64,000 bases of DNA, taken from Actinernus sp. WN-2022. Taxonomy: Eukaryota; Cnidaria; Anthozoa; Actiniaria; Actinernidae. Positions 13,368 to 36,164 of the stretch are shown here, in pieces; position 1 is the first letter of the stretch; every line of letters starts with the position of its first letter. Below the pieces are notes generated by a model. It saw only the letters and a program-made list of their open reading frames with translations. It did no database searches and had not been told where the DNA came from. Made by a program: the position numbers and the translations under genes. Location: the NCBI GenBank assembly GCA_030867875.1, contig JAOWCC010001634.1, positions 134,504,022-134,568,021 on the forward strand. The letters run 5' to 3'.

Positions 13368-13376
13368 ACATATACG

Positions 13377-13994: not shown

Positions 13995-14060
13995 AAATCA
14001 ACATCTCATATGAGAAAACATCGCATGGGCGATATTTCCACTTTGATAAGAGCAGCTGTA

Positions 14061-15412: not shown

Positions 15413-15418
15413 ACTAGT

Positions 15419-15425
15419 TGTATAC
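15419..15425 (-). promoter_or_regulatory. start-proximal box GTATACA
   Basis: Located 6 nt upstream of the TFIIB-like start at 15412. It is a variant of the shared box. Confidence 0.5.
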
Positions 15426-15463
15426 CATATGCCTGTCAATTGTCCAATTGTTTGTTTGTTTTT

Positions 15464-15522
15464 AAAAAAAGAAAAAAATGAAGACAGGTCGCATAACAAT
15501 TTCTCTTCATTCTTTTTTTTTT
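15464..15522 (-). terminator. purine/pyrimidine hairpin between Cys-rich and TFIIB-like genes
   Basis: Arms 15464-15484 (A-rich, ending AATGAAGA) and 15504-15522 (TCTTCATTC then T run) pair perfectly around a loop of about 19 nt. The hairpin is conserved in position and arms at 23794-23848, with a diverged loop. It lies just 3' of the Cys-rich gene. A transcript 3'-end role is inferred. Confidence 0.6.
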
Positions 15523-15535
15523 CGTATCGTGATTT

Positions 15536-15955: not shown

Positions 15956-15960
15956 CGTGC

Positions 15961-15967
15961 AATATAC
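15961..15967 (-). promoter_or_regulatory. start-proximal box GTATATT
   Basis: Located 5 nt upstream of the ATG at 15955. Near-match to GTATATC. Confidence 0.5.
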
Positions 15968-16245
15968 CTATATATGTTATATGTCTAATTGGTATCTTAG
16001 TTGTGACGTCTGCGTTGAGGTTCTTCAATTATACGCACTTGTCTAATCTGTGTGGTATTAATACGTACTAAGATAACAGCATACGTTAATATCGTGAAGT
16101 AGAGAATGTATGTTAGTACCATGGATGGATATACTGTAAACTAATCATTCCTTTAATAGGTGTTAAAATGTAAAAATACAATGAAAACAAATAGTACAAC
16201 AAAACTGCGCCAATCTGGAAAAAAGCAGTAGAAACCGGAGCTGTG

Positions 16246-16291
16246 CTCAAGTTTGGATCTTTAGGTGCAAGAATGCCTAGGGACAATTTGG
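16246..16291. repeat. TIR-like segment between F-box/ankyrin and Cys-rich genes
   Basis: CTCAAGTTTGGATCTTTAGG and the following CTAGGGACAATTTGG closely match the right TIR at about 36011-36055. It therefore places a terminus-like sequence inside the element. A corresponding segment is at 23195-23250. Confidence 0.8.
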
Positions 16292-16306
16292 ATGTTGCGA
16301 GAGATC

Positions 16307-16993
16307 CTATGTGGCAGCATAAGCATTTATGTAGTAATCTAGTAGAGCGTTTTCGTCCTCTATGGTGAGCTGGGAGCGCTTAATGAGCCACTCAATGATC
16401 CATTTAGCGGTATTAAGATGATCGTTGCTACAGGCGCACAGTAGAGCATGATGAATGTATTTATGCTCTGTAGTTATCTGAAAGCGTCGAATGAGCCACT
16501 TAACGGTATTGAGATGGTCATTCCTACAGGCATCTAGTATAGCAAACCCGACGGCTTTATCCTCTTTGGTGAACTGGAAGTGCTTAGTGAGCCACTTAAC
16601 GATATCAAGACGGCCATCCTTACAGGCAGCGCATAGAACGTAATCGGTGTGTCCATCCATTTTATCGAACCATAAGTGCTTAATGAGCCACTTAATAACG
16701 TTAAGATTACCATATTCACTGGCGTAGACAAGAGGAAAGCTATCATCGATGTAGTTTGCGGAAATACCGAAAGTCCTAGCCAAATTGTCTCGATCGTTGT
16801 CATTACGAGTAGACCTAAGACCGAAAGTGAGTACTCGTTTACGGAACTCTTGGTTTACGTTTTTGTAGCACACGAGAGATGCGGCACCGTTTAGGTGTTT
16901 CGATGTCCTTGCGATGCTTGCGAATGATTCTGGGCCTGCATGCTCTACTATCTTGACTAAGATTTCTATGGGAAGGCACGATATGCTATCGAT
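16307..16993 (-). pseudogene. F-box/ankyrin-repeat protein gene, start codon lost (left copy)
   Basis: The frame is open from 16993 to the stop. The position equal to the ATG of the other copy (22220) reads ATC here, so the original start is lost. The N-terminus has an F-box-like segment (LPIEILVKIVEHAG). Four ankyrin-type units follow (..LDIVKWL.., ..LNTVKWL..). F-box proteins link substrates to SCF ubiquitin ligases, and ankyrin units provide binding surfaces. Six units are present in the right copy. A GTG at 16873 would exclude the F-box. Initiation from another codon is possible but not shown. Confidence 0.75.
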
Positions 16994-17251
16994 AGTGGAA
17001 GAGATCGATATACTGCATAGTAATCACTTATCTAATAGGTTCTCAAAACTGCTTTTAAAAAATACAACGAAAAAATGAGGGTCTTATTATATGTTGTTTT
17101 TTCTTGTGTCATATGTTTTTTTTTTGTGTGCAGGCTCGTTGGAAATCGTCGTACGTGTCCCAGTCGTTTGCTGCTCTTTGTTGCTTTTTTGTTGTATTTG
17201 TTCGTTGAAATTTGTTGTGTGTGTCCCAGTCCCCCCACTTTGTATACTACT

Positions 17252-22031: not shown

Positions 22032-22179
22032 AGTAGTAAGAGGCCACTCACCTCCTTGCTTGCACCAATTTATTTCAAGCTTTTCCAGAACCCCCATTGT
22101 TCATACTACTATATATAGTGTTGCCCCAAATTGTCCCTAGACATTCTCACACCTAAAAATCCAAACTTGAGAACCTATT
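22032..22179 (+). repeat. left terminal inverted repeat
   Basis: Matches 36002-36164 in inverted orientation with small indels. It starts AGTAGTA and includes CCTCCTTGCTTGCACCAATT. The inner part (about 22150-22206) doubles as the upstream region of the first gene. Confidence 0.9.
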
Positions 22180-22199
22180 AGAGAAGTGATTACTATACT

Positions 22200-22206
22200 G
22201 TATATC
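22200..22206 (+). promoter_or_regulatory. start-proximal box GTATATC
   Basis: Located 13 nt before the ATG at 22220. It is embedded in a longer conserved stretch (GTGATTACTATACTGTATAT) repeated upstream of the Cys-rich gene. Confidence 0.6.
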
Positions 22207-22219
22207 GATCTCTTCCACT

Positions 22220-23140
22220 ATGGATAACATATCGTACCTTCCCATAGAAATCTTGACTAAGATCGTAGAGCATGCAGGTCCTACGTCATTCGCAAGCATC
22301 GCAAGGACATCGAAACGCCTAAACGATGCAGCATCCCTAGCACGCTACAAAAACGTAGACCAAGGGTTCCATAAACGAGTTCTCACTTTCGGTCTTAAGT
22401 CTACTCACAACGATGACGAGCGAGACGAGTTGGCTGGGAGGTTCGGCGTCCTTGCAACTGACGAAGACTACGTTGTCGATGCTATACTAGATGCCTGCAA
22501 AGACGGTCATCTCGATGTTGCTAAATGGCTAGCCAATCGCTTTCATCCCATCACAGATTTCGATAATTAATACATTGATGCTATGCTAGATGCCTGTAGA
22601 AATGGTCATTTTGACGTCGCTGAATGGTTCGCTGAGTATTTTCAGACCACTATAGATGATGGATACGTTGTCGATGCTATACTAGATGCCGGTAGGAGTT
22701 GTCATCTCGATGTCGCTAAGTGGCTAGCTAATCGCTTCCAGCCCATCATCGTAGATGATTATGACTACTCCATTGATGCTATTATACTAAGTGCCAGTAG
22801 ACGTGGTCATTTCGATGTTGTTGAATGGTTCGTCGAGTACTTTCAGCCTATCATAGAGGATGAATGCGTTGTCGACGTTATATCAAGTGCCAGTAGACAC
22901 GGCCATCTCGATGATGTTAAATGGCTCGCTGAGTACTTTCAGCCAATCATAGAGTATGAAGAATTCAATCGTATGATGCTCACTGCCTACGAAAGAGGGT
23001 ATTGCGATATCGCTAAGTGGCTTGCTGAGCACTTCCAGCTCACCCCAGAGTATAGATACTGCGCTTGCGTAGCGTGCGAGACCTGCGAAGATGGGGAGAT
23101 CACTACACATTGTAATTATCATTACTCAACCAAAACTTAA
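22220..23140 (+). pseudogene. F-box/ankyrin-repeat protein gene, premature in-frame stop (right copy)
   Basis: The ATG at 22220 begins an F-box-like domain (LPIEILTKIVEHAG, residues about 7-50), followed by six ankyrin-type units with HLDVAKWL/HFDVAEWF cores. A TAA at 22568-22570 interrupts the frame after the first unit. The same frame continues to the stop at 23140, so one substitution explains the break. The intact design would be about 306 residues. N-terminal F-box plus ankyrin is known in some giant DNA viruses. A role in redirecting host ubiquitin ligase is a family-based inference. Truncated product or readthrough cannot be excluded. Confidence 0.8.
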
Positions 23141-23194
23141 AGAACTCATTACCTATTTAACCAAAAGCTCCAAGATCCCGAGATCGAGGAGATT

Positions 23195-23250
23195 ACCTAA
23201 AAATCCTAACTTGAGTATCTGTTAGAGGAGTGATTAGCATACTGTATATC
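23195..23250 (+). repeat. internal copy of TIR-inner/promoter segment
   Basis: CCTAAAAATCCTAACTTGAG followed by GTGATTAGCATACTGTATAT matches 22152-22206. It lies upstream of the Cys-rich gene, so the F-box/ankyrin gene is bracketed by direct repeats. Confidence 0.85.
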
Positions 23251-23370
23251 ACCACCAAATGGTATTAGTATATATTCTTTATTCCACGATATTAGCGTTT
23301 GTTGTCATCTTAGTACGCATTAATACCATACAGATCGAACAAGCCGAAGAGTCTAAACGTAGACGCCACA

Positions 23371-23778
23371 ATGACTGAGATAGTAACTTGTGATTGGTTG
23401 CTGCGAGGAAAGGACGCGAAATGTGCAAAGAAGATTTCGAAGACATCGAAGTTCTGTGCCCAGCACAACTTCCAGATCTCGAAAGGCTGTGCCCCATTCG
23501 TGCCATGCTCGAAGTGCGGTAAAGGATGCCGTACGAGTTACGGGCTTTGCTCAGGATGCGGAGCACCTCAACGTCGTCTCATTCTCAATAAGAAGAACCT
23601 CGATATAAGACGTGCTAAGGAGCAGGCGAAACTTGCAGGTCCAAACGTGGTGGAACCGGAGGAAGAGCCAAATACGGTGGAACCGGAGAAAGATCCAAAT
23701 GAGACAGCCTTCGTGGAAGTAGTCCGCGAGTTCGATAGGACGTTTGCAGGCCTCTTGGTCGATGAGAAGGAAGATTAG
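23371..23778 (+). CDS. Cys-rich zinc-binding-like protein (right copy, 135 aa)
   Basis: It corresponds to 15536-15955 and is fully open. The conserved cysteine/histidine layout is CDWLL..G..AKC near residues 7-17, then C..H, then CSKCGKGC and CSGCGAPQRR. This suggests two zinc modules. The C-terminus is acidic with EPEKDPN-type repeats and is the least conserved part. The nearest GTATATC box is about 120 nt upstream (23244-23250), farther than for most genes here. It is co-oriented with the TFIIB-like gene downstream. No family name can be given; a transcription-related role is a guess from context. Confidence 0.75.
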   Translation: MTEIVTCDWLLRGKDAKCAKKISKTSKFCAQHNFQISKGCAPFVPCSKCGKGCRTSYGLCSGCGAPQRRLILNKKNLDIRRAKEQAKLAGPNVVEPEEEPNTVEPEKDPNETAFVEVVREFDRTFAGLLVDEKED

Positions 23779-23793
23779 GAATCACCACATAAG

Positions 23794-23848
23794 AAAAAAA
23801 AAAGAATGAAGAAAAGTCGTTGCGTGACCCCTCTTCATTCATTTTTTT
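23794..23848 (+). terminator. purine/pyrimidine hairpin downstream of Cys-rich gene
   Basis: Arms A(n)GAATGAAGA (23794-23812) and TCTTCATTCATTTTTTT (23832-23848) pair across a loop of about 19 nt. It begins 15 nt after the stop codon. Conserved with 15464-15522. Confidence 0.65.
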
Positions 23849-23885
23849 CCTTTTTTTTCTTTCTATTAAACAGATGACATCTATA

Positions 23886-23892
23886 GTATATC
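23886..23892 (+). promoter_or_regulatory. start-proximal box GTATATC
   Basis: Immediately abuts the ATG at 23893, the shortest spacing in the element. Confidence 0.55.
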
Positions 23893-24831
23893 ATGGACGA
23901 GCTCATCAGATTGTTTGGTTCTGGAATTTGTAGAAGCCTGCATATCAAACCACAATTGCATATTAACACCAGTGAAACATGTTCTGATTGTCTCTGCCCC
24001 TTGGAAATACAAGGAACGGAATTCGTATGTCCCACGTGTGGTCTTGTTTCCGAGGCCGAACCATGTGAAGAAACGAAGATCGATATTACTACTACTCGAC
24101 TGCGTATAGTAGGTCCGGACGGATTTCAGTATCAAAACGATCTAGACCACGCAAAGCCAAAGCAAAGCGATAACACAAAACTGCAACGCCGAACGATCCT
24201 ACGAGAACTACGAGAATACAACACTATTTATAAACGAAATTACGACCTATCGTTCCCTACGAACACGTTAGGAATCGTAGCCGACGCATTTATCCAAGTA
24301 AAGAAAGTTTATATCAAGCGTAGTTACGCTAAGAGAACTGTTTTAGCTTCTCTACTCTACCAGGCATGCATACAATGCGGGTTTGTGCGATCTAGAGGCG
24401 AGGTTGCTCGCTTCATGCAACTAAACGACAAAAGCATCTGTAGCGGAGAGGTCTTTATACGTTCTCTGTATAACGATGATAAGATTGATATGGACTTGGA
24501 TGCCAAGCGCATAGTTCCTCACATTGCAACAACTTTCCTTAAGCTCGATCCTCAAGGAGTACCTATAGACGTTCAACAAATAGTCCACGAGGTTGTTACT
24601 ACAGCAATGGAAAACAATATAGGCACCAGATCGGTACTTAAGACGAAAGTTGTTGGAGCAAGTTACGAGGTACTACGGCGTTTAGGATCGCCTATGTCTC
24701 TTAACGAGGTCATTAAACTATGCGATGTATTTGGAGGTTCGGTCAAGCGTTTTTTCAAGGAGTTGCTTTCTTACCATTCCCACTTCGAACCAATCTACAC
24801 TAAGCATGGGCTAACTAGTAATAGGACTTAG
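23893..24831 (+). CDS. TFIIB-like transcription factor (right copy, 312 aa)
   Basis: A zinc ribbon uses C30, C33, C46 and C49 (CSDC...CPTC). Two cyclin-like repeats follow at about residues 97-180 and 200-300; the first contains YAKRTVLASLLYQAC. This layout is that of TFIIB, which bridges promoter DNA and RNA polymerase. Many large DNA viruses encode relatives, but it is not part of the usual Polinton core set. The frame is intact and about 70-75% identical to the left copy. It is preceded by a box touching the ATG and by a hairpin. It converges with the broken hydrophobic-protein gene. I infer it directs transcription of the element's own genes. Confidence 0.78.
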   Translation: MDELIRLFGSGICRSLHIKPQLHINTSETCSDCLCPLEIQGTEFVCPTCGLVSEAEPCEETKIDITTTRLRIVGPDGFQYQNDLDHAKPKQSDNTKLQRRTILRELREYNTIYKRNYDLSFPTNTLGIVADAFIQVKKVYIKRSYAKRTVLASLLYQACIQCGFVRSRGEVARFMQLNDKSICSGEVFIRSLYNDDKIDMDLDAKRIVPHIATTFLKLDPQGVPIDVQQIVHEVVTTAMENNIGTRSVLKTKVVGASYEVLRRLGSPMSLNEVIKLCDVFGGSVKRFFKELLSYHSHFEPIYTKHGLTSNRT

Positions 24832-24882
24832 CGAAGTGAAAGTGAGAGCCGTGTTCGTTTCTTTCGTAGGAAATATCGATTC

Positions 24883-25478
24883 TTACCCCACTAAGCTGCC
24901 AAGTTTTTCTCGCATTTCCTTTTGCACTTCTTGCTTGAGTTCGGCTCGAACCTGATCCGAACTTTTTTCACCTATGGAAGTCTCGCGACGAATTTCAGAC
25001 CTCATAATCTCATATTTGTTTGCTTCATCCAGGATGAGACTGTATTCAGAGTCGGATATACTTTCATCGCGTAGGGCCTTCGATACTAGATCGCGAATCG
25101 TATTGATTTTCGCCTTTGCCAACATAGTTGTCCTTTCATGTTTAGAAACCTTTATTCCTAACTTCTTAGCTCCAAGGGTCGTAGATGCTGAAATTAATCC
25201 ACATAGCCCACCAACAACTCCAAGGGGTAGACCAATCACTATTCCAACCCCAGTCAACGCTACGCCCAATCCAGATCCAGATAAGATCACGGATAGACCT
25301 CCCGTTGCCACTGCGATACCATGAACTATTCCTTGGGAACGTAGTGTCTTTCTTGAACTTCAATGTCCGAAAGCGTGTCTCGGATCGTTTGCAGTCTAAA
25401 GTTCTTTCCAGTGTCACTAGCAATCGGTGGATAGATATTTGGTGCTGATGGAAACGGTTGAATCGAATCGCCTTCCAT
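24883..25478 (-). pseudogene. hydrophobic Polinton protein, frameshifted by a 25-bp deletion (right copy)
   Basis: It corresponds to the 205-aa protein at 13377-13994. The start at 25478 (MEGDSIQP) opens a frame resembling the left copy for about 45 codons. Near 25338-25345 about 25 bp present in the left copy are missing, and the frame shifts into a stop. The downstream frame from about 25311 then continues the same protein, including the Gly-rich hydrophobic stretch and charged C-terminus, to 24883. The C-terminus is slightly longer (LGSLVG). It lies directly downstream of the penton gene on the same strand. Confidence 0.85.
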
Positions 25479-25483
25479 TGTAC

Positions 25484-25490
25484 GTTATAC
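25484..25490 (-). promoter_or_regulatory. start-proximal box GTATAAC
   Basis: Located 5 nt upstream of the ATG at 25478, in the gap after the penton stop codon. Confidence 0.55.
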
Positions 25491-25497
25491 ATATGGC

Positions 25498-26163
25498 TTA
25501 CTCAAGCTTCAATACGTATCGTAGAGGTCGACCACGGAAGTCCATGATATTATTTTTGTCATCGCGAACAGTCAGTCGAAGGCTGTTCCGCATTGTTCCT
25601 AGAGCTTGGATTTTCGTTGATTCCATCAAATGATTGGTCCTTCTGTTAAACCAGGTGCCTTCTACGTTAAAGCTAGCTAGTACAGTCGAGCGTTTTCCCT
25701 CAAGGAGTGAGAATTTGGAATCCACCGCATCACAGTGGATATATATTGTTTGGATATATTCCATTATCAGGTCGTATTCTCTCACTTTTAATGTTACGTT
25801 TCCATGCTCGTCTTCATTTCCTTTGATACCCAATATTTCGCAGAGATGTTTACTGAACTTGATTGGTTTCTTCACATCTAGGGTCCAATACTTTTTACTG
25901 GATATGTCTATAAATTTAACGATGTCAGCATTGACTGCAGGTGCTAAGCGATCCATTAAGGTAGTTATATTATAATTCCCTAGATTGATTGTGTATGGGA
26001 ACCCCACGCCCTTGACTTTCCACTGAAACGTGGCCTTCTCTTTTAGATTCAACCAACTGTTCTCAATGGTGGTTTCGAGTAGCGAAATATTATTGATAAG
26101 AATTGGATCGTCGAAGTAGACCGTATGGTCGGATGATGTGGTGATGACATTAAGGATCGCCAT
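25498..26163 (-). CDS. penton-like minor capsid protein (221 aa)
   Basis: Length, beta-rich composition and motif order fit the single-jelly-roll minor capsid (penton) proteins of Polintons and relatives. These are an N-terminal strand region with ISLLETTIENSW, a glycine turn before the NYNITTLMDRL segment, and a KHLCEILG segment. A YIHCDAVDSKFSLLEGK stretch follows, then a C-terminal RNSLRLTVRDDKNNIMDF region. In virions such proteins occupy the fivefold vertices. It is divergent from the 495-aa gene across a gap of only about 40 bp. The frame is intact. Assignment is by pattern, not by search. Confidence 0.75.
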   Translation of the reverse strand: MAILNVITTSSDHTVYFDDPILINNISLLETTIENSWLNLKEKATFQWKVKGVGFPYTINLGNYNITTLMDRLAPAVNADIVKFIDISSKKYWTLDVKKPIKFSKHLCEILGIKGNEDEHGNVTLKVREYDLIMEYIQTIYIHCDAVDSKFSLLEGKRSTVLASFNVEGTWFNRRTNHLMESTKIQALGTMRNSLRLTVRDDKNNIMDFRGRPLRYVLKLE

Positions 26164-26191
26164 TATGTATTAAAGGTATAACTGTATGTAT

Positions 26192-26198
26192 GTATAAC
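26192..26198 (+). promoter_or_regulatory. start-proximal box GTATAAC
   Basis: Located 6 nt before the ATG at 26205. A second GGTATAAC lies at about 26175-26182 in the same short divergent spacer. The box would fall inside the gene if translation began at the upstream ATG 26190, which favours 26205. Confidence 0.6.
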
Positions 26199-26204
26199 TT
26201 CAAT

Positions 26205-27692
26205 ATGTCTCATAAAGTTCATTTCGAAGGTGATTGGGGTGACTATATCGCACCTCGCAATGCAAAGGCCTTTGCAGTCTTTAAGGAAAAATATCCCCAT
26301 GCGGACTTTGAGAAGTTCTTAGCTAGGACGACGGCGTCAGACATACACGATGATTCAACGTATGAGACTAGGATCGTGTTTTTCGATTGTGGACAACATT
26401 GGTATATTACCGGTCTCGTACCAGTGGATATTCGAAAACGCATCGATGACGCATTGCAGGGAATGGTTGATGGTTTCCCATCTACGTTTACAGCAGTTCC
26501 TTCTACTGAACCGGCACGAGACGTTGATCTCACTAATCTATGGATATATGTCACCCCAAGGAAGAAGTTCAAAGCTGGCGTTCCTAACATATTCAAGGAG
26601 ACCGTCGTAAGGCATGTGACAGCAAAGGAGTCCCATGCATGGCTATCAGGTCCGGATTTCAAATATTGGCCTCAACAATTGAATTTCGCAACGTGGTGTG
26701 CGACTTCCGGATGTGGAGTATCGTTGTTCGACCCTACTTTCAAAACGTATCCACCAGTCGTTCAGGGGTTCCTACGATTCCATGTTTATTTCACGATACG
26801 AAGGGTTCTACATGAACTTGGTTGCCCTCTACCTGGTGACAGTGCTTTCAAACAACTCGATAACCTCTACAGCGAATCAGCTCTTGAGAGATTGTGCATC
26901 GAATTTGGCATATCCCGAACACCAGACTTCCGATGGCACGGAGGTAGGAATCGCGGATTAGGAGACGTATTCCTTTTGTATGGTGATGGCTACAAAAACG
27001 TCCACGTAATCCGAGGCTACGACAAAGAAGCAGGTAATTATCCCAACCACAATAACTTATTTGCAGACGAGGTAGGCAGGGTGGACAAGGGCGATCTAGT
27101 ATCCTTTATTCGGAACGACGAACACGAAGGAAAGCAATACAATTGGTTTACGCCACCAATCGGTAGAGGTTTGACGAACGCTGGGTTAGGTAGATTGAAT
27201 CGATCTGTTGAGGCTTTTGGATACTGCATTCTAGGTGCTCAAAACGACCTTAACGAATCCATCATGGATAGTTTCAACGTCAAAGAAAAGTTCAAGAGCT
27301 TAGTCGAAGGCGCTATTCTCGAAAACGCCTTAGTGGTGAGCTATAAAAACTATCTTACAGCCATAATACACACACATAAGAGACTAGATCTAGCAATAGC
27401 TATAGGTGTACGATTATTACCAAGCAATCTTGAGTACTACCTCGGTAAGAAGGATCCAATCCCGAACGCCACGAAAGATATGGTATTAGGTGTAAACGAT
27501 ATTAATAGAGACGTTCGCAAACCCAAATTACCACCAGATATGGAAGGGAAGAAACAAAAGAAACAATTACCACATAGCGCAAAGCAACAATTACCACAAC
27601 GAGTTCTACATGGTCCTACTCCACAACACGAGACCAATCTAGCGATGGTATCTATTGCAGGAGCTGGAATTGCATGGACCCTATTTCGTTAA
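26205..27692 (+). CDS. unrecognised 495-aa Polinton protein
   Basis: No family recognised. The ATG at 26205 (MSHKVHF) is preferred over 26190 because a GTATAAC box lies between them. The protein is globular in appearance, with aromatic and charged segments (GDWGDYIAP, FKYWPQQLNFATWC, GKQYNWFTPPIGRG). A Lys/Gln/Pro-rich linker follows near residue 440. It ends in a short hydrophobic C-terminal segment (MVSIAGAGIAWTLF), possibly a membrane anchor. It is intact and is one of the longest frames of the element. No Walker, protease or nuclease motif is evident. Its place among capsid genes suggests a structural or virion role, as inference only. Confidence 0.75.
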   Translation: MSHKVHFEGDWGDYIAPRNAKAFAVFKEKYPHADFEKFLARTTASDIHDDSTYETRIVFFDCGQHWYITGLVPVDIRKRIDDALQGMVDGFPSTFTAVPSTEPARDVDLTNLWIYVTPRKKFKAGVPNIFKETVVRHVTAKESHAWLSGPDFKYWPQQLNFATWCATSGCGVSLFDPTFKTYPPVVQGFLRFHVYFTIRRVLHELGCPLPGDSAFKQLDNLYSESALERLCIEFGISRTPDFRWHGGRNRGLGDVFLLYGDGYKNVHVIRGYDKEAGNYPNHNNLFADEVGRVDKGDLVSFIRNDEHEGKQYNWFTPPIGRGLTNAGLGRLNRSVEAFGYCILGAQNDLNESIMDSFNVKEKFKSLVEGAILENALVVSYKNYLTAIIHTHKRLDLAIAIGVRLLPSNLEYYLGKKDPIPNATKDMVLGVNDINRDVRKPKLPPDMEGKKQKKQLPHSAKQQLPQRVLHGPTPQHETNLAMVSIAGAGIAWTLFR

Positions 27693-28069
27693 CGTCGTTT
27701 ATATTGCTCTATCGCGATCACCACTATTGCTACGATGAATAACCAAACGTTCTCTGCTAGTACTCCCAGGGCTTTACCAGCCATAGTAAATATGAAACTC
27801 GCAATCGATCCAATCATTCCAGGTAGGATCTGTCCAAGTTTCTTTCCCATTTCTTTCAACAAACCACCAGTCGTTTTTAATCCCTTCTTTACTGCATCTG
27901 TCGCTTTATCGATACTATCCTTTACTGGTTTCGGTACGGATTTCGATAGCAGGGAAACTATCGTACTAACGATCATAGCACCAATAGAAGTTACCACTGC
28001 AAGAACAGTCATTCCATACTTTCTGAAAATGTATTTGATCTTTTCACGTAGCGACGTACGTTCTAGCAT
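27689..28069 (-). CDS. small two-segment membrane protein (126 aa)
   Basis: Basic N-terminus, then a hydrophobic segment (about residues 20-42). Next come an amphipathic Lys-rich middle (KPVKDSIDKATDAVKKG) and a long hydrophobic region (about 78-118) ending QYKRR. This is a membrane or membrane-disrupting type of virion protein; no named family. It overlaps the convergent 495-aa gene by 4 bp and lies 24 bp downstream of the 218-aa gene on the same strand. It has no start-proximal box of its own, which suggests co-transcription with that gene. Confidence 0.65.
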   Translation of the reverse strand: MLERTSLREKIKYIFRKYGMTVLAVVTSIGAMIVSTIVSLLSKSVPKPVKDSIDKATDAVKKGLKTTGGLLKEMGKKLGQILPGMIGSIASFIFTMAGKALGVLAENVWLFIVAIVVIAIEQYKRR

Positions 28070-28093
28070 GGCTTCTTCTTGACGTTCAAGGAA

Positions 28094-28750
28094 TTATCTT
28101 GCCCTATGGATGGACATTAACTCCTTCTTAGCTACTTCTTTCTGAGCGTCGGTTGATTCAGAGTCCCCCAGAATAGATTCATTATTTGCTGCCCGTTCGG
28201 CGAGTTGTTGTTCTGCAAATATTCTTTCATTGGCGGCTTCTTCAGTAGTTGGACCTAAGGTCTCTTTGAGAGAGCTTCGAATCCTAACGTGTAATTTCTT
28301 ATCTTTATCATCACCGGTGAATAGACGTATAGGTGGTCCTTTGCTGCCAAGTTCACGAACTTTGATTTGTTCGTCTATTAAGTAGATTTCGATATTATGT
28401 CGAACAACCGCATCCGGATATTGTCCCTTTACCATGTCAACCAGCATTTCCTTTGCCGAATCTTGAATGGTTTGTTCGAATGTGAATCCTCGAAACAGGT
28501 CATCACCTTCTAGGACGTAGTTGTGAATATCGTCCATGGGAATCGTTTCACTACCACCAGCTTCATCTTGACTACCATCCAATATATTAGCCAAGTATCT
28601 TCGTTGGTCTTCTTCATCTTGTTGTCGTCGGTTTTCTTCTTCTTCTCGTTGTTGTCGATCATCTTCATTTCGTTGTCGATCATCTTCATTTCGTTGTCTA
28701 TCAGCTCCACCAGGTCTTTCCTCTGTGGTATCAACGTCCATGTTGAACAT
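28094..28750 (-). CDS. charged Arg/Glu/Gln-rich protein (about 218 aa)
   Basis: Start taken at 28750 (MFNMDVD) or 28741. The longer frame to 28831 would run across the capsid gene start. Residues about 10-50 are a low-complexity charged stretch with a tandem DRQRNED unit, encoded by near-perfect 21-bp repeats (about 28660-28700). The C-terminal half is ordinary alpha/beta-like sequence without recognised motif. Divergent from the capsid gene with about 25 bp between starts. A scaffold or core role is possible from position, not shown. Confidence 0.65.
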   Translation of the reverse strand: MFNMDVDTTEERPGGADRQRNEDDRQRNEDDRQQREEEENRRQQDEEDQRRYLANILDGSQDEAGGSETIPMDDIHNYVLEGDDLFRGFTFEQTIQDSAKEMLVDMVKGQYPDAVVRHNIEIYLIDEQIKVRELGSKGPPIRLFTGDDKDKKLHVRIRSSLKETLGPTTEEAANERIFAEQQLAERAANNESILGDSESTDAQKEVAKKELMSIHRAR

Positions 28751-28764
28751 AACTATGTATCTAT

Positions 28765-28771
28765 GTATATT
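28765..28771 (+). promoter_or_regulatory. start-proximal box GTATATT
   Basis: Located 4 nt before the capsid ATG at 28776, in a spacer with further TATGTAT words that may serve the divergent gene. Confidence 0.5.
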
Positions 28772-28775
28772 CAAC

Positions 28776-30012
28776 ATGATATCATCAAAGTTGATTCCCA
28801 CACAAGCACGAAGAGAGCCTCTTGCACTCAAAGCTCAACGAACCTTATATAGGAAAACTTTCAATCCATCATCTGCCAATCCAGGTGAGACTCTATACGT
28901 AGACGTTCCAACGCTAGTTGAAGGCATAGTACTAGTACCTGGTAGCCTAGCGCTATTGGGCGACATCGTATTATCTGGTGGACATGCGAATAACAGAGTC
29001 GTTTACAACGTTGGACGCTGCTTGGTCGTGCGTAGAGTCTGTAAGATGGGAGCTGAAATAGTAGAAGACCTTGCCAGGTCAGATCTTCTACAAACGTATT
29101 CCGACGTGTATCTATCCACGCAAGAGAGAGAATCGAGAATACAACAAGGCATCCAATCAGAGAACGTAAACAAGCTACGATCTAAGGCTGGCGACAAAAG
29201 TACTTCGGTTGCTGCCGATAATGCGCTCCTAGCTGCACACGGTTCCAAATATAGAATTCCGTTAGATGTCGATATTCTGACACAACATGGAGTTCTATAT
29301 CCACATGCCCTAGAAGATACTATTTCATTCGAGTTGACTCTAGCGCATGCCATTGATGTCGTAGTTGGATCGGATACGACAAAGATAGGTACGTACCAAC
29401 TTACCAACATCCAACTAGAATACGAAATGATCAAGGATGGAACGCTGGCTAGTAGTGCACTTCACGAATACGAAATAGGTACTGCATTCCTATACGACCA
29501 CGCTGTTCACTTCAAGACAGTAAAGATCGCTAAAGCATCCGATACTTTGATATCTCAAAACGTCAATGTTCCACGACGATCCTTTGCTGGACTACTTCTA
29601 CTATTCGTAGATCCACACACTGCTGGTACGCGAGATAGCGAATCATTCTCGAATCCCGATATTTTGAAGGTAGAAGTAGATGTCATAAGGGATTCCCAAC
29701 AGATTATTTCCAAGAGGTATGCTTCCCCCAGATTTCTGGGAGGCTGCAAAAGGCTGGTTTGGTACGTCCAATACTTCCATGACTCCAACAAAGTGTTAAA
29801 ACAATAGGTTCGCTATCCTAGTCGATTGTCGCACAGCAAAAGATTCCACCGTTCATGGTGATGGATTGGCACAAACCGGTGGTGGAAAAGATATCGACAT
29901 TCGCATACATAGAACTGTAGGAGGAAGTGGAAATGTGAACATGCACATCTATGTCCTTGCGGATGCTCAGCTTACGGTATTGAACGGATCTTTACGTAGT
30001 ATAACATACTGA
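28776..30012 (+). pseudogene. major capsid-like protein gene with frameshift and in-frame stop
   Basis: Start chosen at 28776 (MISSKLIPT), 4 nt after a box. The first frame runs to 29807. Beyond about 29690-29720, however, capsid-like sequence continues in the +1 frame (LPPDFWEAAKGW), so there is a frameshift. That frame meets TAA at 29797-29799 and then stays open to the TGA at 30010-30012 (..NVNMHIYVLADAQL..). The design is about 410 residues, short compared with common Polinton capsid proteins. Beta-rich two-part architecture and the position beside the packaging ATPase support a double-jelly-roll capsid. The last stop overlaps the ATPase ATG. Confidence 0.72.
29999..30005 (+). promoter_or_regulatory. 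start-proximal box GTATAAC
   Basis: Located 6 nt before the ATPase ATG at 30012 and inside the final codons of the capsid gene. Confidence 0.55.
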
Positions 30013-30632
30013 TGGATTCTCTCGTAGAGCACGTGCCGTTCAACGCACTCATAGTCGGTCCAACGAATTGTGGGAAGACTGCGTTTCTCATAGAACAACT
30101 TCGTGGATCATTTCGTGGTAAGTTCGATTACATAGTACTGATTTGTCCTACATATGCCCACAATAGAACCTATCGTGGATTTGCAAATCGAGATCCTCGT
30201 TTCTTCGTCATGTCACCACCGCAGGATGCCATCGATGCTACGTTAAATATTTGCGCAACGTTTTGGTCAGGTACCAATACTCTATTGTTTCTCGATGATT
30301 GCGCCGCATCGAAGGACGTCAAGAAACGAACTGACAAGCTAGTAGACTTAGCATTTTCTGCACGACATATAGGGCTTTCTATTTGGGTGCTGTCCCAACA
30401 ATTAACGAGCATATGTAAACCCTTCTTCGAGAACGTAGCTATCGTAGTAGCATTCCATACAGCATCGGCCGTAGATGGTAAAAGGATATTTGAGGATTAT
30501 GGAGGCTCGCAAGAATGTAAAGAGTTACGAACGATACTTGGATCTCATAAGTTCGCTCGCATGTGCTTCTGTCTACGCCATCCTTTCGAGGTAGTCTTAG
30601 AGCTACCAGCACCTATAACATATTATGGCTGA
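30012..30632 (+). CDS. FtsK/HerA-type genome-packaging ATPase (206 aa)
   Basis: Walker A is GPTNCGKT at residues 16-23, and Walker B is LLFLDD at 91-96. A WVLSQQ sensor-like motif follows at about 125-130. This order and size are those of the A32-like packaging ATPases of Polintons, virophages and large DNA viruses. These pump DNA into capsids. The frame is intact. The ATG overlaps the TGA of the capsid gene, and its end overlaps the next start by a few bases. A GTATAAC box precedes it. It is the clearest evidence for a virion-forming ancestry together with the capsid genes. Confidence 0.9.
   Translation: MDSLVEHVPFNALIVGPTNCGKTAFLIEQLRGSFRGKFDYIVLICPTYAHNRTYRGFANRDPRFFVMSPPQDAIDATLNICATFWSGTNTLLFLDDCAASKDVKKRTDKLVDLAFSARHIGLSIWVLSQQLTSICKPFFENVAIVVAFHTASAVDGKRIFEDYGGSQECKELRTILGSHKFARMCFCLRHPFEVVLELPAPITYYG
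30613..30619 (+). promoter_or_regulatory. start-proximal box CTATAAC
   Basis: Located 5 nt before the ATG at 30625, within the ATPase C-terminal codons. Confidence 0.5.
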
Positions 30633-31173
30633 TAAAGAAATACTCGAGATACTCGGTGAGGACGTAACAGGCCCACCACCAACCAACCTAGACGTTACAT
30701 CAAACAATCGCGAATCACTTTCGATCTTAGCTGCAACGGGCGTAACGAAAGAATACCTAGGTAAGAACTTCTCCCTAGGAGACATCTCTAGACTTCCTGA
30801 GAAAGAAGTAGATAAGTTGTATAGGAGGTACCAGGCCGTTCTAGCTCAGCAAATAACGAAAGGCTTAGTCGATGGCGTGATGCGTCTAGCTACCGGCCTA
30901 GTTGCCTACCTAGTACCAATAGATTCTCAAGAAGCCCTGATCAAAGATCTACAAGAAGACCATCTCGTCCGCAACGAGATCAGTGCTGCGACTGGCCTAC
31001 TATCGCTTAAAGCAGGTCGCCTTGTAGCGCTAGCTAGCGTCCTATTTCACGTATCTGGCCACGTAGTCATTCCTGGTACGCCTATTGAACCTCCACTAGT
31101 ACTTACTATACCGAATCGAGATGGAAGAAGCGGACCAGATAACTGCGAATCCTCCGACGACTGCACCAACTAA
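30625..31173 (+). CDS. unrecognised 182-aa Polinton protein
   Basis: It overlaps the end of the ATPase gene by 8 bp and the start of the next gene by about 53 bp. The N-terminus is acidic and Pro-containing. The centre is helical with moderately hydrophobic segments (GLVDGVMRLATGLVAYLVP, residues about 92-110). The C-terminus is polar. No motif is recognised. A structural or membrane-associated role is possible by position among late genes. The frame is intact. Confidence 0.65.
   Translation: MADKEILEILGEDVTGPPPTNLDVTSNNRESLSILAATGVTKEYLGKNFSLGDISRLPEKEVDKLYRRYQAVLAQQITKGLVDGVMRLATGLVAYLVPIDSQEALIKDLQEDHLVRNEISAATGLLSLKAGRLVALASVLFHVSGHVVIPGTPIEPPLVLTIPNRDGRSGPDNCESSDDCTN
31106..31112 (+). 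promoter_or_regulatory. start-proximal box CTATACC
   Basis: Located 8 nt before the ATG at 31121, inside the preceding gene. Confidence 0.45.
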
Positions 31174-31468
31174 GGTAAAAAAAACAAAGCGCGTTGCAGC
31201 CGGAAAGGCACTAGCGTTAAGCAACAAACTTGCTAGAGAAGCTCAGAAGAGAGAGTTGACGCGCGAAAGCGAATCGTGCAAAGAAATCGACGTAGAGAAA
31301 GGTCGGTTCGAAAACCTGGCTATCCTCGCAGTCATCGGTACGGGCGCTACATTGGTTGGCACGTACTATACATACAAAAAGTATGTAGATGGCAATAAGC
31401 GTGTTGCCGCCGTTAGCACGATACGACCTGCAGCTCCGGTAAAGCCTACGGCACTAGACATGGAGTAA
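31121..31468 (+). CDS. single-pass membrane protein (115 aa)
   Basis: Lys-rich N-terminal half (residues about 16-60), then one membrane segment (LAILAVIGTGATLVGTYY, about 66-83), then a short Pro/Ala-rich tail. It starts inside the upstream gene in another frame. A CTATACC box and a good GAGATGG context support the start. No family recognised. Small one-pass proteins like this and the next two could sit in an internal virion membrane. Confidence 0.6.
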   Translation: MEEADQITANPPTTAPTKVKKTKRVAAGKALALSNKLAREAQKRELTRESESCKEIDVEKGRFENLAILAVIGTGATLVGTYYTYKKYVDGNKRVAAVSTIRPAAPVKPTALDME

Positions 31469-31490
31469 CACTTAAAGACTAGAGACCATA

Positions 31491-31497
31491 CTATATA
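31491..31497 (+). promoter_or_regulatory. start-proximal box CTATATA
   Basis: Located 7 nt before the ATG at 31505 in a 36-bp gap. Confidence 0.5.
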
Positions 31498-31504
31498 TGT
31501 CGAG

Positions 31505-31714
31505 ATGGATAAAGAATTGATGAAGACGGCAACCGATGCATCTATAATTGTAGGACTTGCTACTGGTATTGGGTGGATCGCAAAGAAGACTACCAAGGAA
31601 TCTATGCTTAGTGATCCTTCTTCTTCCCTAGTAAATTACGTAAAGTGGACTGCCGTGATAGTTGGTAGCTTATACGCGAAACAATATCTTGAGAAACAAA
31701 AGATCATACCGTAA
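31505..31714 (+). CDS. small membrane protein (69 aa)
   Basis: Two moderately hydrophobic segments (TDASIIVGLATGIGWIA, residues about 9-25, and YVKWTAVIVGSLYA, about 45-58). The short C-terminus is Lys-rich. The stop TAA shares its last base with the next ATG. No family recognised. Confidence 0.6.
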   Translation: MDKELMKTATDASIIVGLATGIGWIAKKTTKESMLSDPSSSLVNYVKWTAVIVGSLYAKQYLEKQKIIP

Positions 31715-32140
31715 TGGCGGCAGCAATTGCTATGACAGTTTTCGGAGCTGTTTTGAATGCGACGGCATTTACTGGTGGTGGTATACTAGCTAGAATGATT
31801 GGAAAGGGTGATATAGATACAGAACGAGAGAGACACGATAGGGCCATCGAAAGACAAGAATCTGAAATGACAGCGTATAGAATCGAACGTCAAAGATTAT
31901 ACGACTTTGCACAAAATCAGTAAGGTCTTGAACGCGACGCATACAACGTTCAAAGAGATACCAACAAAGCCTTCGTGCAATCCGATAAGTTACGTAAGGC
32001 GCTTAAACGGCTCGAAGGAATGAAAGAACCCCGCTTATCTGACTACTATCGACCCTCAAACAATCAGAAGACCGGTGAGTTGCTATATGTTGGCGGTGGA
32101 ATGCTAGGCGCTGGATACGCTATTAGTAGATGGCTATAGA
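31714..32140 (+). pseudogene. small Polinton membrane-type protein, interrupted by an in-frame stop
   Basis: The ATG at 31714 opens a hydrophobic N-terminus (AIAMTVFGAVLNATAFTGG) followed by a charged helix. TAA at 31921-31923 stops it. The same frame then runs open for about 72 codons to the TAG at 32138-32140, ending in a glycine-rich hydrophobic segment (VGGGMLGAGYAI). One substitution explains the break, giving a design of about 141 residues with membrane segments at both ends. Function unknown. Confidence 0.7.
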
Positions 32141-32154
32141 TGCTACTAGAAACG

Positions 32155-32350
32155 TACTAGGTACTACTACTAGGCAACTACTAGGCAACTACTAGGCAAC
32201 TACTAGGCAACTACTAGGCAACTAGATACGTACTAGAAACGTACTAGAAACATACTAGGTACTACTAGGAACGTACTAGGTACTACTACTAGGCAACTAC
32301 TAGGCAACTACTAGGCAACTACTAGGCTACTAGATACTACTAGGTCACTA
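32155..32350 (+). repeat. short-unit tandem repeat (ACTACTAGGCA and variants)
   Basis: Repeated CTACTAGGCAA and CGTACTAGAAA units lie downstream of the late membrane genes. Non-coding, low-complexity, likely slippage-prone. Confidence 0.9.
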
Positions 32351-32410
32351 CTAAAAAATACGAAAAGAAAAGAAAAAAGAAAGAAAAAAAGAAAAAGAAA
32401 AAAAAGAAAA

Positions 32411-32466
32411 GAAAAAAGAAAGGAATAAGGACCGGTTGGATAGGTTCTTATTCTTTTCTTTTTTTT
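32411..32466 (+). terminator. purine/pyrimidine hairpin upstream of integrase
   Basis: The left arm (32411-32432, AAAAAAGAAAGGAATAAGGA core) pairs with the right arm (32443-32466, GGTTCTTATTCTTTTC core) across a loop of about 10 nt. It is preceded by about 60 nt of poly-purine. It resembles the hairpins at 15464 and 23794 and lies 3' of the late gene block. Confidence 0.65.
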
Positions 32467-32484
32467 CATCTGTTGAAGGTTAGA

Positions 32485-33549
32485 ATGTATAGATGTATGA
32501 TGGATGCTAAACTTGCGAATATCTTCTATGGTCCTATGGGCTATTGGAAAGGTCACGCTGCAATTGACAAGCTATCGGTAGCAGCGAAAGTATCAGAAGA
32601 CGTAGCTAGTAGTTGGTTGGAAAAGCAATCTATATGGCAAGTATATCTACCACCACCGAAACACATTCCACGCCCGCATTGGACTGTATCGAAACCAAAT
32701 GAAGTCCACCAAGCTGATTTGATATTCTTACCACACGATCGACCTGGGCGTAGACGAAAGCTATACAAGTACGCTTTAGTAGTAATCGATGTAGCTTATC
32801 GATACAAAGAAGCCGAACCTTTAGCATCTAAAGATAGTGGTGAAGTTGCTGCTGCATTCGAACGAATCTACAAACGTAGTCCACTCGAATGGCCAAAGAC
32901 GTTGCAAGTAGACCCTGGTAGAGAATTCATGGGGCGTATGTCTGAAACGCTAGAACTACATGGTACGAAAGTTCAACGAGGCGAGGCTGGTAATCATAGA
33001 GCGCAAGGCTTCGTCGAACGAGCGAATAGAACATTGGCTGAGAGATTGTTTGGATATCAATATGCACAAGAGATGGTACTTACTTCGGAAGGATCGGATG
33101 CGCGTAGTAGAGAATGGGTAGTTCGTTTACCAATGGTTATCAAAGCCCTAAACAGTGAGGTGACTCGACATACAGGAAAAGAGCCTTCGAATTCTGTAGT
33201 GACGCAACAAGTAGATCTAAAGACTCCTACATATTCGCGCACTGTTGGATTGAGAGAAGAGCGCCTACCATTCGACGTCTTAGTTCGATATCTCTACGCA
33301 CCAGGAGAATTGGAAGGGGGTGAAAAACGTAGAGCTACTGATCCTGTGTGGAGTTTACGGCTATATGGTGTTTCGCGAAGTGTAGTATCTTCGGGACAGC
33401 CTGTGCTGTACTACCTTGCGAAGCAAGAAGGGGAGAAGGACGCACCCAAACGTGGATTTGTTCGTGAAGAGCTACAAGTCGTTCCACCAGATACGGAACT
33501 ACCACCAAGAGGTATTCTGTTCGTACCTAGTATAGCAGCTCGTAAATGA
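32485..33549 (+). CDS. retroviral-type DDE integrase
   Basis: Catalytic triad visible as D in HQADLIFL (about residue 78), D in QVDPGREF (about 143) and E in GFVERANRTL (about 178). The last two are separated by 34 residues, close to the usual spacing. The N-terminus matches the helical region of Polinton integrases. The C-terminus (PVLYYLAKQEG..., about 300-330) fits their small beta-barrel domain. It inserts element DNA into chromosomes with short target duplications. Start taken at 32485; ATGs at 32497 and 32500 are alternatives. The frame is intact. It converges with the polymerase gene and overlaps its end by 23 bp. Confidence 0.92.
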   Translation: MYRCMMDAKLANIFYGPMGYWKGHAAIDKLSVAAKVSEDVASSWLEKQSIWQVYLPPPKHIPRPHWTVSKPNEVHQADLIFLPHDRPGRRRKLYKYALVVIDVAYRYKEAEPLASKDSGEVAAAFERIYKRSPLEWPKTLQVDPGREFMGRMSETLELHGTKVQRGEAGNHRAQGFVERANRTLAERLFGYQYAQEMVLTSEGSDARSREWVVRLPMVIKALNSEVTRHTGKEPSNSVVTQQVDLKTPTYSRTVGLREERLPFDVLVRYLYAPGELEGGEKRRATDPVWSLRLYGVSRSVVSSGQPVLYYLAKQEGEKDAPKRGFVREELQVVPPDTELPPRGILFVPSIAARK

Positions 33550-35622
33550 AACCATCCATGTCTAAGTTTTTGTGTCCATAGGCTAATGTATCGATTCCAT
33601 TATTATGGATCCAACTCTTGGAGTCGAATGGTGAAAGGGATACCTTATTAATGTGCTGCCCATAGATGTGGTGGCCTTCCGAGCGTAGTACATCCATCCC
33701 ATGTCGGAAGGTCTTCTTAGCAAATAGCGACTCTTTGTACTGCTTGTGGCGGATGTGCTTCTTTACAACTACCTTGCGGATGCCTTTAGCCTTCCTTACG
33801 CTTTTCCCACCGGCCTCTAGGATAGAATACATCTTCTGTCGAAGGCCTACGTACTCAGCGATTGGGCGCCCTGCACACTCGTCCTTCATCTTTCCAAGGA
33901 CTTTCTTGTTCGCTGTGCTATGTAGTGGATGCTCCTTAGGGTAGTCAGATGTGTCATAGAGATCTTCGTGGGTAGCCATGTCGGCATACACATCGTCTGT
34001 CTGGATCTCAAGGAGTAGACTGTCTGTGTCTGTATAGATTAGCTGGCATCGGTCTCCGTACTGTCCAAGCAGTTGGTTGTAGTAGGAGTCGTACATCAGA
34101 TGCTTTGAGAGGTCAAGAATGCTCATCCCCACGTAGACTGGACGGTTCAAAGTCAGTCGACTCTTATGCATATGCAGGGCTGCCAGATCATCGTCGAAGA
34201 CGTTTGCCCGTGCGAAGGTTGGGCTGGCAATCAGGCATCTAAGTTTATCCTCTTCGCTGGCACGCACTAGATCGACATTTACACGCTTGCGTAAGTTCTC
34301 CATGGTTTTGCCGAAGACGCTGTTGTTCATCAACTTGTACAGGTCCTTTTCGAAGTCACTAGTCGCATCTTTCCGGAGCTCAGTGTTCTTTCGGATATAA
34401 GGCTCCATCCATGGACTTTGGTCAAATCGTAGTGCTCTGTGAATCTTCTCGAGATGCATGCCTAGGGATAGGTAAAGCTGTAGATTGCGGTAGTGGAGTA
34501 CGTATCGCCCTTTGTCGCGGAGGTTCGGCACCAACTTTTCAACCTCTATTGATGTACCTTTGAGGTTGCACTGATATGATATTCGGACATCCACTCCTTT
34601 GGGATCTTCATGCGCTCTGGTGCTAGCGGATAGGCATTGTGCGTGTTGTGGAGTTCTTGTGGGTATTCGAGATCCACTTCTAGTATGTAGCCCTTAGGGC
34701 TGTCAGATGGATAGTTTACTATGGTATTGGTGAGTTCTTGAAGGTCCTCTACCCACCCGAAGCCTCCCGCTGGTAGTGGCTGACTCATCGCCCATCCATA
34801 TAGGTTGTTGGCATCGAGGTACTGGATATACGTTGTGGGCTTCGATTGGTCATAGCACTCAACCAGAGGATTGTTGGCCTTGGCATGTCTCTTCGATACC
34901 ATAGATATACCTCCGCGAAGACCTTTCTCTACGAAGAGATGCTGGTCATAGTCCACAAGCAGCTCGAGCTCTACATCTGTAGTTTTCAAGAGCGCATCCC
35001 AAGAGAGACCAGGGCTGGTGTAGTAGTGTGCAGGATCCATGCCATACTGATGTAGACACGTTTCCCGAAAGGTCTCAAAGACTCGATACATTGCTGAGCG
35101 TAGTGTCCAACGAAAACAGTTGTCATCGTTGTTCCTTACATTTATCATGGCTTTCTTATTTGCAACTTCCGGAGGTAGTTCGATGACGGATCCACCTCTC
35201 AGAGGTTGGTAGAGAGCGATGTTTAGCCAGAGCAGGATGATATGGTCGACAACCCATCCAGAGCCTCTATTCGTCCACTTCTCGAGATGCTCTAGAATCG
35301 TTGGGATGGCTCTGTCTAAGGCCTCATGAATCTCGTCGGTCTGCATGACAACCTCCTGGTTATGGCGCATCGTAGGGTCGGTAGACTCATTGCTACCGTC
35401 TGGATGGTCCTTCCTGAGCGTCACCTTCAGAGCGAGTTGAAACTTCGCGCCACGTAGGTCGTCGACTTCTTCCACCAATTTCTGATGAATATCGTGGCGC
35501 GTGTCTTCTAGGAAGGCCCTTGGGGCAACAGCTAGTTCGTGGCCCACGGGAACGTCCATCTGCCACCCACGTAGATACTTACCGATGGGCCGATGGGTTC
35601 GCTGCAATGTAAGGCGTTCCAT
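33527..35622 (-). pseudogene. protein-primed DNA polymerase B gene, frameshifted and apparently lacking the exonuclease region
   Basis: The N-terminal frame runs 35622 to 34546. It contains a CFRW segment (residue about 169) and polymerase motif A (LDANNLYG, about 259). The C-terminal frame is 34594 to 33527, with KLMNNSVFGK (motif B) and YTDTDS (motif C). The frame changes at about 34550-34600. Polintons replicate with such enzymes using a terminal-protein primer. The sequence passes from the CFRW segment almost directly to the region upstream of motif A. The 3'-5' exonuclease block expected between them is not visible. A GTATACG box precedes the ATG at 35622. Confidence 0.88.
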
Positions 35623-35634
35623 ATTGGGGGCGGG

Positions 35635-35641
35635 CGTATAC
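35635..35641 (-). promoter_or_regulatory. start-proximal box GTATACG
   Basis: Located 12 nt upstream of the polymerase ATG, next to a longer repeat shared with the zinc-finger gene upstream. Confidence 0.5.
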
Positions 35642-35650
35642 TATAGTGGA

Positions 35651-35976
35651 GCTATATGTTTAAATGGTTATACGATATTGAGTAAATGCGTGTGTGTGTG
35701 TCCAGTTTTCGTTAACGATGGGTTTAGGGTGGTAGGTAGGGCAGTTCTTTTTCTTATGTCTCCACAAAGCAAAGTAGCAGCTTAGCTCTCCGCCACAATT
35801 CTCACAAATGTATTGCTTTGGGGCCCTAACACACGGGGTCTTGCGATTCTCTCGATGGCGTTTCAGATTCCACCTCCTCTGAAATACTCTTCCACACTTT
35901 TCACACTCCAGCTCCTATGGGTTGTATATCTTAAATGGAGCTATATGTTTAAGTGGTATGTCATGTTGAGTAAAAA
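35651..35976 (-). repeat. duplicated upstream element (35651-35686 and 35941-35976)
   Basis: GCTATATGTTTAAATGGT at 35651 recurs as GCTATATGTTTAAGTGGT at 35941, followed in both by TTGAGTAAA. One copy lies upstream of the polymerase gene and the other upstream of the small zinc-finger gene. Confidence 0.8.
35660..35914 (-). pseudogene. small C2H2-type zinc-finger gene, start disrupted
   Basis: The reverse strand encodes about 84 residues with CEKCGRVFQRRWNLKRHR and CENCGGEL...LWRHKKKNC, two zinc-finger-like modules. No ATG is in frame; a TAG is the codon just before. The sequence at 35914-35920 looks like a start codon split by one extra base. A TATAC box and a copy of the polymerase upstream repeat precede it. 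Zinc fingers often form the N-terminus of Polinton polymerases, so this may be a split-off polymerase domain or a separate regulator. Confidence 0.6.
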
Positions 35977-36001
35977 TAATTGGCCGGTTGGAACGCGTGC
36001 G

Positions 36002-36164
36002 AATAGGTTCTCAAGTTTGGATTTTTAGGTGTGAGAATGTCTAGGGACAATTTGGGGGCAACACTATGTATATAGTAGTATGAACAATGGGGGTTCTGGC
36101 CCACCTTGAAAAAAATTGGTGCAAGCAAGGAGGTCGTGTCATCTGCCAACGTACTACTACTACT
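36002..36164 (-). repeat. right terminal inverted repeat
   Basis: Inverted match to 22032-22179, ending TACTACT. It has a few indels and an extra (ACT)n at the very end. Confidence 0.9.

Follow-up and report, generated by a model that had tools for sequence, protein, structure and literature searches.

A TATA-like box adjoining the start codons of a Polinton in the Actinernus genome, and its possible role as a compact promoter

How are the genes of a Polinton (Maverick) expressed from within an animal genome? The question is raised by a 64,000-nucleotide stretch of the actiniarian Actinernus sp. WN-2022 (the window; GCA_030867875.1, contig JAOWCC010001634.1), in which a Polinton and a truncated inverted relative, copy B, carry a TATA-like sequence, GTATAWC or a close variant, almost in contact with most of their start codons. 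To our knowledge the expression of animal Polintons has been little studied, and no promoter motif for them was found among the articles consulted in an open-licence library. Here we analyze the window together with related Polintons of the same genome (1.39 Gb in 1772 contigs). The box is a real, recurrent signal that abuts the starts, and we propose that it is probably a very compact core promoter giving near-leaderless mRNAs. The labels capsid-type and penton-type and the p-numbers are working names that we assume from gene position or size, with no significant domain match behind them; the penton-type label of the gene at 26163 (–), in particular, is presumed from gene position.

The initial annotation had listed ten boxes in the Polinton ending 13, 0, 5, 6, 4, 6, 5, 8, 7, and 12 nt before their ATGs, and all ten spacings were reproduced when the sequence was re-read, as were the boxes before 13377, 15412 (–), and 15955 (–) in copy B. 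Four more, before 23259, 16122 (–), 26163 (–), and 32497, can now be added. Taking 17 curated starts of the element and its other ATGs as the control, TATA lies within –20 to –1 of 13/17 starts (and of 4/4 in copy B) compared with 8.8% of control ATGs, in agreement with the claim that most of the Polinton start codons have a nearby box. The –20 to –1 interval is by far the highest of the 20-nt bins: from –40 to –21 the values are 5/17 and 9.8%, and in each bin from –41 to –160 TATA is found at 0–2 of the 17 starts, which is background level. GTATA is the top 5-mer upstream of the starts, is matched by 0/1000 random ATG sets, and is present at 9/17 starts versus 5/167 AT-rich control ATGs, while GTATA[ATC]C precedes 4/1687 ATGs outside both elements. 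The DNA upstream of the starts is 65% AT, and in dinucleotide shuffles of the 20-nt leaders the value of 13/17 for TATA was reached 5 times in 2000 (shuffle mean, 8.0/17). The enrichment over shuffled controls that had been anticipated is seen most clearly for GTATAWC itself, with 6/17 starts and 0/2000 dinucleotide shuffles. The form TATAAA is absent from the 40 nt upstream of all 17 starts. A de novo expectation-maximization search gave an off-register WTAMYRTA-like motif (66 versus 37 ± 4 in 18 random sets), and the k-mer test was preferred.

In two divergent gene pairs with spacers of 34 and 41 nt, a TATA-like sequence is combined with TTYAAY on both sides. This composite, TAT[AG]-0..3-TTYAAY, is found at 4/17 starts, all of them in these two pairs, versus 1/459 control ATGs. 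The 34-nt spacer together with both start codons forms a dyad (30/40 positions, 0/2000 shuffles), and the 41-nt spacer is not a dyad in register (1450/2000 shuffles). The p216/capsid-type spacing, parsed in 20 of 21 loci with the window included and L110 left out, is 34 nt in 9/20 families, and TTCAAY abuts the capsid-type ATG in 15/20 and the facing p216 ATG in 11/20. As a matter of geometry rather than measurement, a 34-nt spacer leaves no room for a pair of classical promoters that each have their TATA 30 bp upstream of the start site. With a box-to-ATG distance of 0–13 nt overall, the earlier argument also stands that the spacing does not suit a TATA box 25–30 nt upstream of a start site that itself precedes the ATG.

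Close copies retain several of the boxes. The window Polinton (copy A) and copy B are separated by a synonymous divergence (dS) of 0.70–0.80 with a ratio of nonsynonymous to synonymous divergence (dN/dS) of 0.17–0.41 over four genes, and the Polinton lineage was therefore under selection; the 39-aa open reading frame (ORF) has a dN/dS of 0.21 against copy B. Between A and B, GTATA is kept in register at 3/4 boxes and GTATA/TATAC at 1/6 other sites. Copy B also has a GTATATC at the F-box gene, with ATC in place of the start codon, and the copy of the 39-aa ORF at 16122 (–) has its box 5 nt before the start. In further 5′ fragments (16 fetched, 13 with these genes; L031, L032, and L044 gave nothing) the p25 box contains TATAA in 13/13 copies and the 39-aa ORF box is GTATATC in 10/12. 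Among 30 copies around the ATPase, TATA is invariant in both the ATPase box and the capsid-type box, and the integrase box is GTATAGA in 4/9 close copies (L054 and L065–L073 yielded nothing in the integrase/PolB comparison).

The box also recurs in more distant families, an outcome that had been named in advance as support. With a divergent ATPase (P0118) as the query, 20 further loci with 56–93% ATPase identity were reached, to which stretches around other genes were added, and TATA is present in the 20 nt before 37/62 homology-defined starts versus 217/2586 other ATGs of the same stretches, where one ATPase start is counted twice and some of the control ATGs fall outside element DNA. The resulting P value of 3e-23 overstates independence, as the sequences are related. 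With the ATPase starts excluded the count is 29/42. By gene it is 14/20 for capsid-type, 5/9 for p182, 1/3 for penton-type, 3/4 for the zinc-ribbon gene, 2/2 for TFIIB, and 1/1 for the 39-aa ORF, and for p25 it is 3/3 further families at a protein identity down to 40%. Four of the 62 starts come from L121, a near relative (93% ATPase identity). The count excluded two ATPase matches and one p25 match that had no nearby ATG as well as matches starting after residue 12, and covered no p495, p216, p126, or F-box starts; L114 and L115 gave nothing and L119 only a weak F-box match. No relatives were found in a viral contig set (searched with the ATPase, an ATPase profile, a TFIIB profile, the integrase, and a capsid-type profile), nor in a genome contig set.

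Several observations weigh against a simple promoter reading of the box. In the window, the choice of in-frame ATG is ambiguous for five starts (25478, 26205, 28741, 28776, and 32497), and these were picked with the boxes in view. When first ATGs are used the signal is weaker but holds: TATA is found at 10/17 starts (7/2000 shuffles of 20-nt leaders, 189/2000 of 40-nt leaders) and GTATA remains the top 5-mer with 0/1000 random sets, the top 6-mer and 7-mer being ATACTG and ACTGTAT, both found at three starts (matched by 1 and 0 sets in 1000, respectively). Among close copies the GTATATC of the TFIIB gene is present in 0/13, the p182 TATA reads TACA in roughly one-third of 30, the integrase box is altered to GCATAGA or ACATAGA in 5/9, and the PolB start was matched in 0/9 copies tried, leaving its box unreplicated. 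In the distant families TATA within 20 nt is missing at 6/20 capsid-type starts and is present at only 8/20 ATPase starts, one of these starts being counted twice. The ATPase box falls on the S-I-T-Y-stop codons that close the preceding frame, and it varies with them across families; coding constraint accounts for it at least in part. The earlier observation that boxes lie even within upstream coding regions is correct for the ATPase and p182, but it loses force since the former changes with those codons and the latter varies. In addition, L116, L118, and L120 have the zinc-ribbon gene and/or p25 and boxes, yet no TFIIB match, and the histone H4 gene of the host has a TATA at –13 too.

We nevertheless favor the compact promoter, for which we put forward the following scheme. 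Transcription would probably begin at the box or a few bases downstream, such that the mRNAs are almost leaderless. The TTYAAY that follows the box in the two divergent pairs is perhaps an initiator, and both promoters would then fit within 34–41 nt. Four starts have no TATA in 20 nt. Three of them, 28069 (–) and 31714, which had already been described as directly following another gene, and likewise 23371, either overlap a co-directional gene ahead of them or begin no more than 25 nt from it, and would probably be read from the same mRNA; the fourth, 28741 (–), has TATG in place of TATA. That initiation involves a virus-type factor working with the host RNA polymerase II, the TFIIB-like protein of the element being the candidate, is a doubtful further step. 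The host polymerase is assumed because a Pfam scan of 16 element proteins showed no RNA polymerase domain (four ORFs that are small or broken were left out, and several of the element's proteins have no assigned family), and the factor is graded lower still because L116, too, has no TFIIB match.

The TFIIB-like protein has an N-terminal zinc ribbon in which C30, C33, C46, and C49 are invariant in 9/9 aligned proteins. Its profile matches the TFIIB core in the PDB (E 6.6e-5), and Foldseek gives E 1.4e-6 on a low-confidence model (predicted local distance difference test score, 56); its Pfam score of 17.1 is under the cut-off of 23.6. In a set of 5.8 billion proteins at least one homologue (P0001) is found among the matches listed. 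A TFIIB match is present in 13/16 close fragments, in copy B, and in 2/11 distant-family stretches (L117 and L121), and most of the other nine miss that place or hold few element genes. The idea that the box requires the TFIIB-like gene is weakened by L116, L118, and L120. A role of the protein in reading the box is possible and the distribution of the gene does not demand it.

What else could place such a sequence at these starts? Chance, acting in the AT-rich DNA before the starts and passed on to related copies, would draw on the base composition, on the high shuffle mean for TATA, and on the non-independence of the copies, but it is hardly credible in view of the GTATAWC result in shuffled leaders, the scarcity of GTATA at AT-rich control ATGs, and the recurrence of the box in related families. 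A motif that serves as a leader for translation, or that simply results from codon overlap, and that is no promoter, would fit the TTCAAY that abuts the ATG and the codon-bound ATPase box; we consider it very unlikely, as the distance from box to ATG ranges from 0 to 13 nt, several boxes are intergenic, and the same composite is found on both strands at facing genes. The host RNA polymerase II might instead use an ordinary initiator-type promoter in the box region with a very short leader and no element-specific reader. The lack of a polymerase domain in the scanned proteins and the boxes kept in stretches with no TFIIB match are in its favor, and TTCAAY resembles a YCA initiator. This is nonetheless an unlikely explanation. 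The box has the TATA core of a metazoan TATA-box promoter, but a TATAAA-type box some 30 nt ahead of the start site is not seen here, as judged from ATG positions; the host genome has a histone repeat, and in the one unit analyzed 3/4 histone genes have TATA 69–92 nt before the ATG. A usual polyadenylation signal, moreover, is found near only 1/18 stop codons of the element.

The remaining alternative, quite unlikely in our estimate, is a virophage-like life in which the box would be read by machinery from a co-infecting large DNA virus, in the way assumed for Cafeteria roenbergensis virus (CroV) and mavirus. The late motif of African swine fever virus (ASFV) lies 4–12 bp upstream of the start site, with a median late leader of 9 nt (PMC7163114), and viral TATA-binding protein (TBP) and TFIIB homologues are proposed as its readers, the spacing being unfit for a classical complex (PMC7163114; PMC5294985). 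The initial annotation had likened the box to late promoters of large DNA viruses. The likeness is supported: it concerns an AT-rich or TATA motif lying a few bases ahead of a presumed start site, and short leaders, and the distance to the ATG fits an element at or within ~12 nt of the start site as in late promoters of nucleocytoplasmic large DNA viruses (NCLDVs). It does not extend to a late class: the box is not confined to post-replicative genes but is also found at the TFIIB-like, integrase, PolB, and capsid-type genes, with no visible early/late split. The sequence differs (GTATAWC versus TATATA), and ASFV encodes an RNA polymerase and a TBP relative, neither of which is recognized in the Polinton. 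The poxvirus late TAAAT initiator overlaps the initiation site (PMC5294985), but it has another sequence and is read by a viral polymerase. Mavirus and endogenous mavirus-like elements provide a motif common to the genes of an integrated Polinton-related virus, and mavirus shares this motif, TCTA, with CroV (PMC8547959), but it was searched for in 100-nt windows and is linked to a giant virus that infects a flagellate. A pacmanvirus transpoviron carries the late motif of its host virus, TATATA, before 6 genes (PMC11788076). Also in favor of a helper, the same assembly has a contig of 195,635 bases (C1216; L123, L124) that encodes an NCLDV major capsid protein (E 7e-68) and VLTF3; it probably represents a large DNA virus, either integrated in the host or co-assembled with it. 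In the 9.5 kb of it that were read (28–31% GC), however, TATA is present at 1/6 starts (control 52/364) and AATAAA or AAATAA at 6/6 (control 19/364), a signature unlike the Polinton box, so that this virus is unsupported as the helper, as far as one contig and six starts go. A term search of PMC11071308 and PMC11071296 returned nothing on TFIIB, promoters, or TATA.

Table 1. Positions in the window of the Polinton, its truncated relative, and the boxes, with distances to the start codons.
Feature	Position	Strand	Description
Truncated inverted copy B	13237..17046	–	carries the same 5′ genes as the Polinton
Copy B boxes			before 13377 (+), 15412 (–), 15955 (–), 16122 (–)
Polinton element	22032..36164		14.1 kb; ends AGTAGTA...; 5-bp direct repeat TTGGG
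Polinton terminal inverted repeats	22050–22179 / 36002–36134
GTATATC	22200..22206	+	13 nt before ATG 22220, F-box/ankyrin-like gene
GTATATC	23244..23250	+	8 nt before ATG 23259, 39-aa ORF
GTATATC	23886..23892	+	0 nt, directly abuts ATG 23893, TFIIB-like gene
TFIIB-like protein	23893..24831	+	312 aa, four-cysteine ribbon
GTATAAC	25484..25490	–	5 nt before ATG 25478, p25
TATACC (TTATACC), then TTTAAT	26175..26180	–	11 nt before ATG 26163, penton-type gene (presumed)
GTATAACTTCAAT	26192..26204	+	abuts ATG 26205, p495; box-to-ATG distance 6 nt
34-nt divergent spacer	28742..28775		TATGTTCAAC before the minus-strand ATG (p216, 28741); TATATTCAAC before the plus-strand ATG (capsid-type, 28776; box-to-ATG distance 4 nt)
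GTATAAC	29999..30005	+	6 nt before ATG 30012, A32-like ATPase; inside the final codons of the frame before it
CTATAAC	30613..30619	+	5 nt before ATG 30625, p182; inside the ATPase gene
CTATACC	31106..31112	+	8 nt before ATG 31121, p115
CTATATA	31491..31497	+	7 nt before ATG 31505; loosest box
GTATAGA	32487..32493	+	3 nt before ATG 32497, rve integrase
GTATACG	35635..35641	–	12 nt before ATG 35622, PolB N part

The element (Table 1) is a Polinton by its rve integrase (Pfam E 1.2e-8), A32-like ATPase (Pox_A32, E 7.3e-9), PolB (DNA_pol_B_2, E 1.7e-4, below the family cut-off), terminal inverted repeats, and short target duplication. The gene at 22220 has an F-box (E 1.2e-4, above its cut-off). 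For the capsid-type protein a Capsid_N match (E 0.053) was obtained in one of two homologues, and the window protein itself has no Pfam family and matches nothing in the PDB at E values up to 10. The copy is decayed: the F-box/ankyrin gene has an internal stop at 22568–22570, the frame of the capsid-type gene is broken before 29.81 kb, and PolB is split over two frames. It is inserted in an older repeat, of which an empty form lies at 42199–42899, and LINE and Penelope-type ORFs were recognized by eye in the window. Each of two genome searches with the ATPase gave >4500 first-look candidates, of which 150 were scored, and the Polinton family is therefore very abundant.

Other features of the element were noted in passing. 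A 56-bp piece spanning the inverted-repeat end and the F-box leader, box included (22151–22206), is duplicated at 87.5% identity as 23195–23250, ahead of the 39-aa ORF. A/T-rich hairpins lie just upstream of the TFIIB-like gene (23794–23866, whose counterpart in copy B folds too) and of the integrase (32353–32466). The p25 gene (24883–25478) gives a match in two pieces with a break near residue 46 in 13/13 close copies that hold it (L033–L046); in copy B it is a single 205-aa frame, and a shared frame change or an intron are both conceivable. In L028/L042 a window-type ATPase block is joined to zinc-ribbon and TFIIB genes with copy-B-like leaders, which suggests recombination between families. 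At the 3′ side, AATAAA or ATTAAA occurs within –40 to +100 of 1/18 stop codons in 22032–36164, and the Polinton 3′ ends may be formed without the usual polyadenylation signal; the missing AATAAA on the plus strand is not significant (34/300 Markov runs). T-runs as terminators were dropped, as they are within 100 nt of only 1/18 gene ends.

In its widest form, which we offer with considerable reserve, our proposal would be that the Polinton has a promoter language of its own, namely the start-abutting GTATAWC with TTCAAY in the capsid block, and a TFIIB-like protein of its own that replaces or redirects the host factor. If that is true, Polinton genes in an animal genome would be expressed independently of the normal promoter rules of the host. 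The combination of a defined motif and abundant near-identical copies makes Polinton expression testable by start-site mapping, and the box bears on whether Polintons are self-sufficient viruses or satellites of large DNA viruses.

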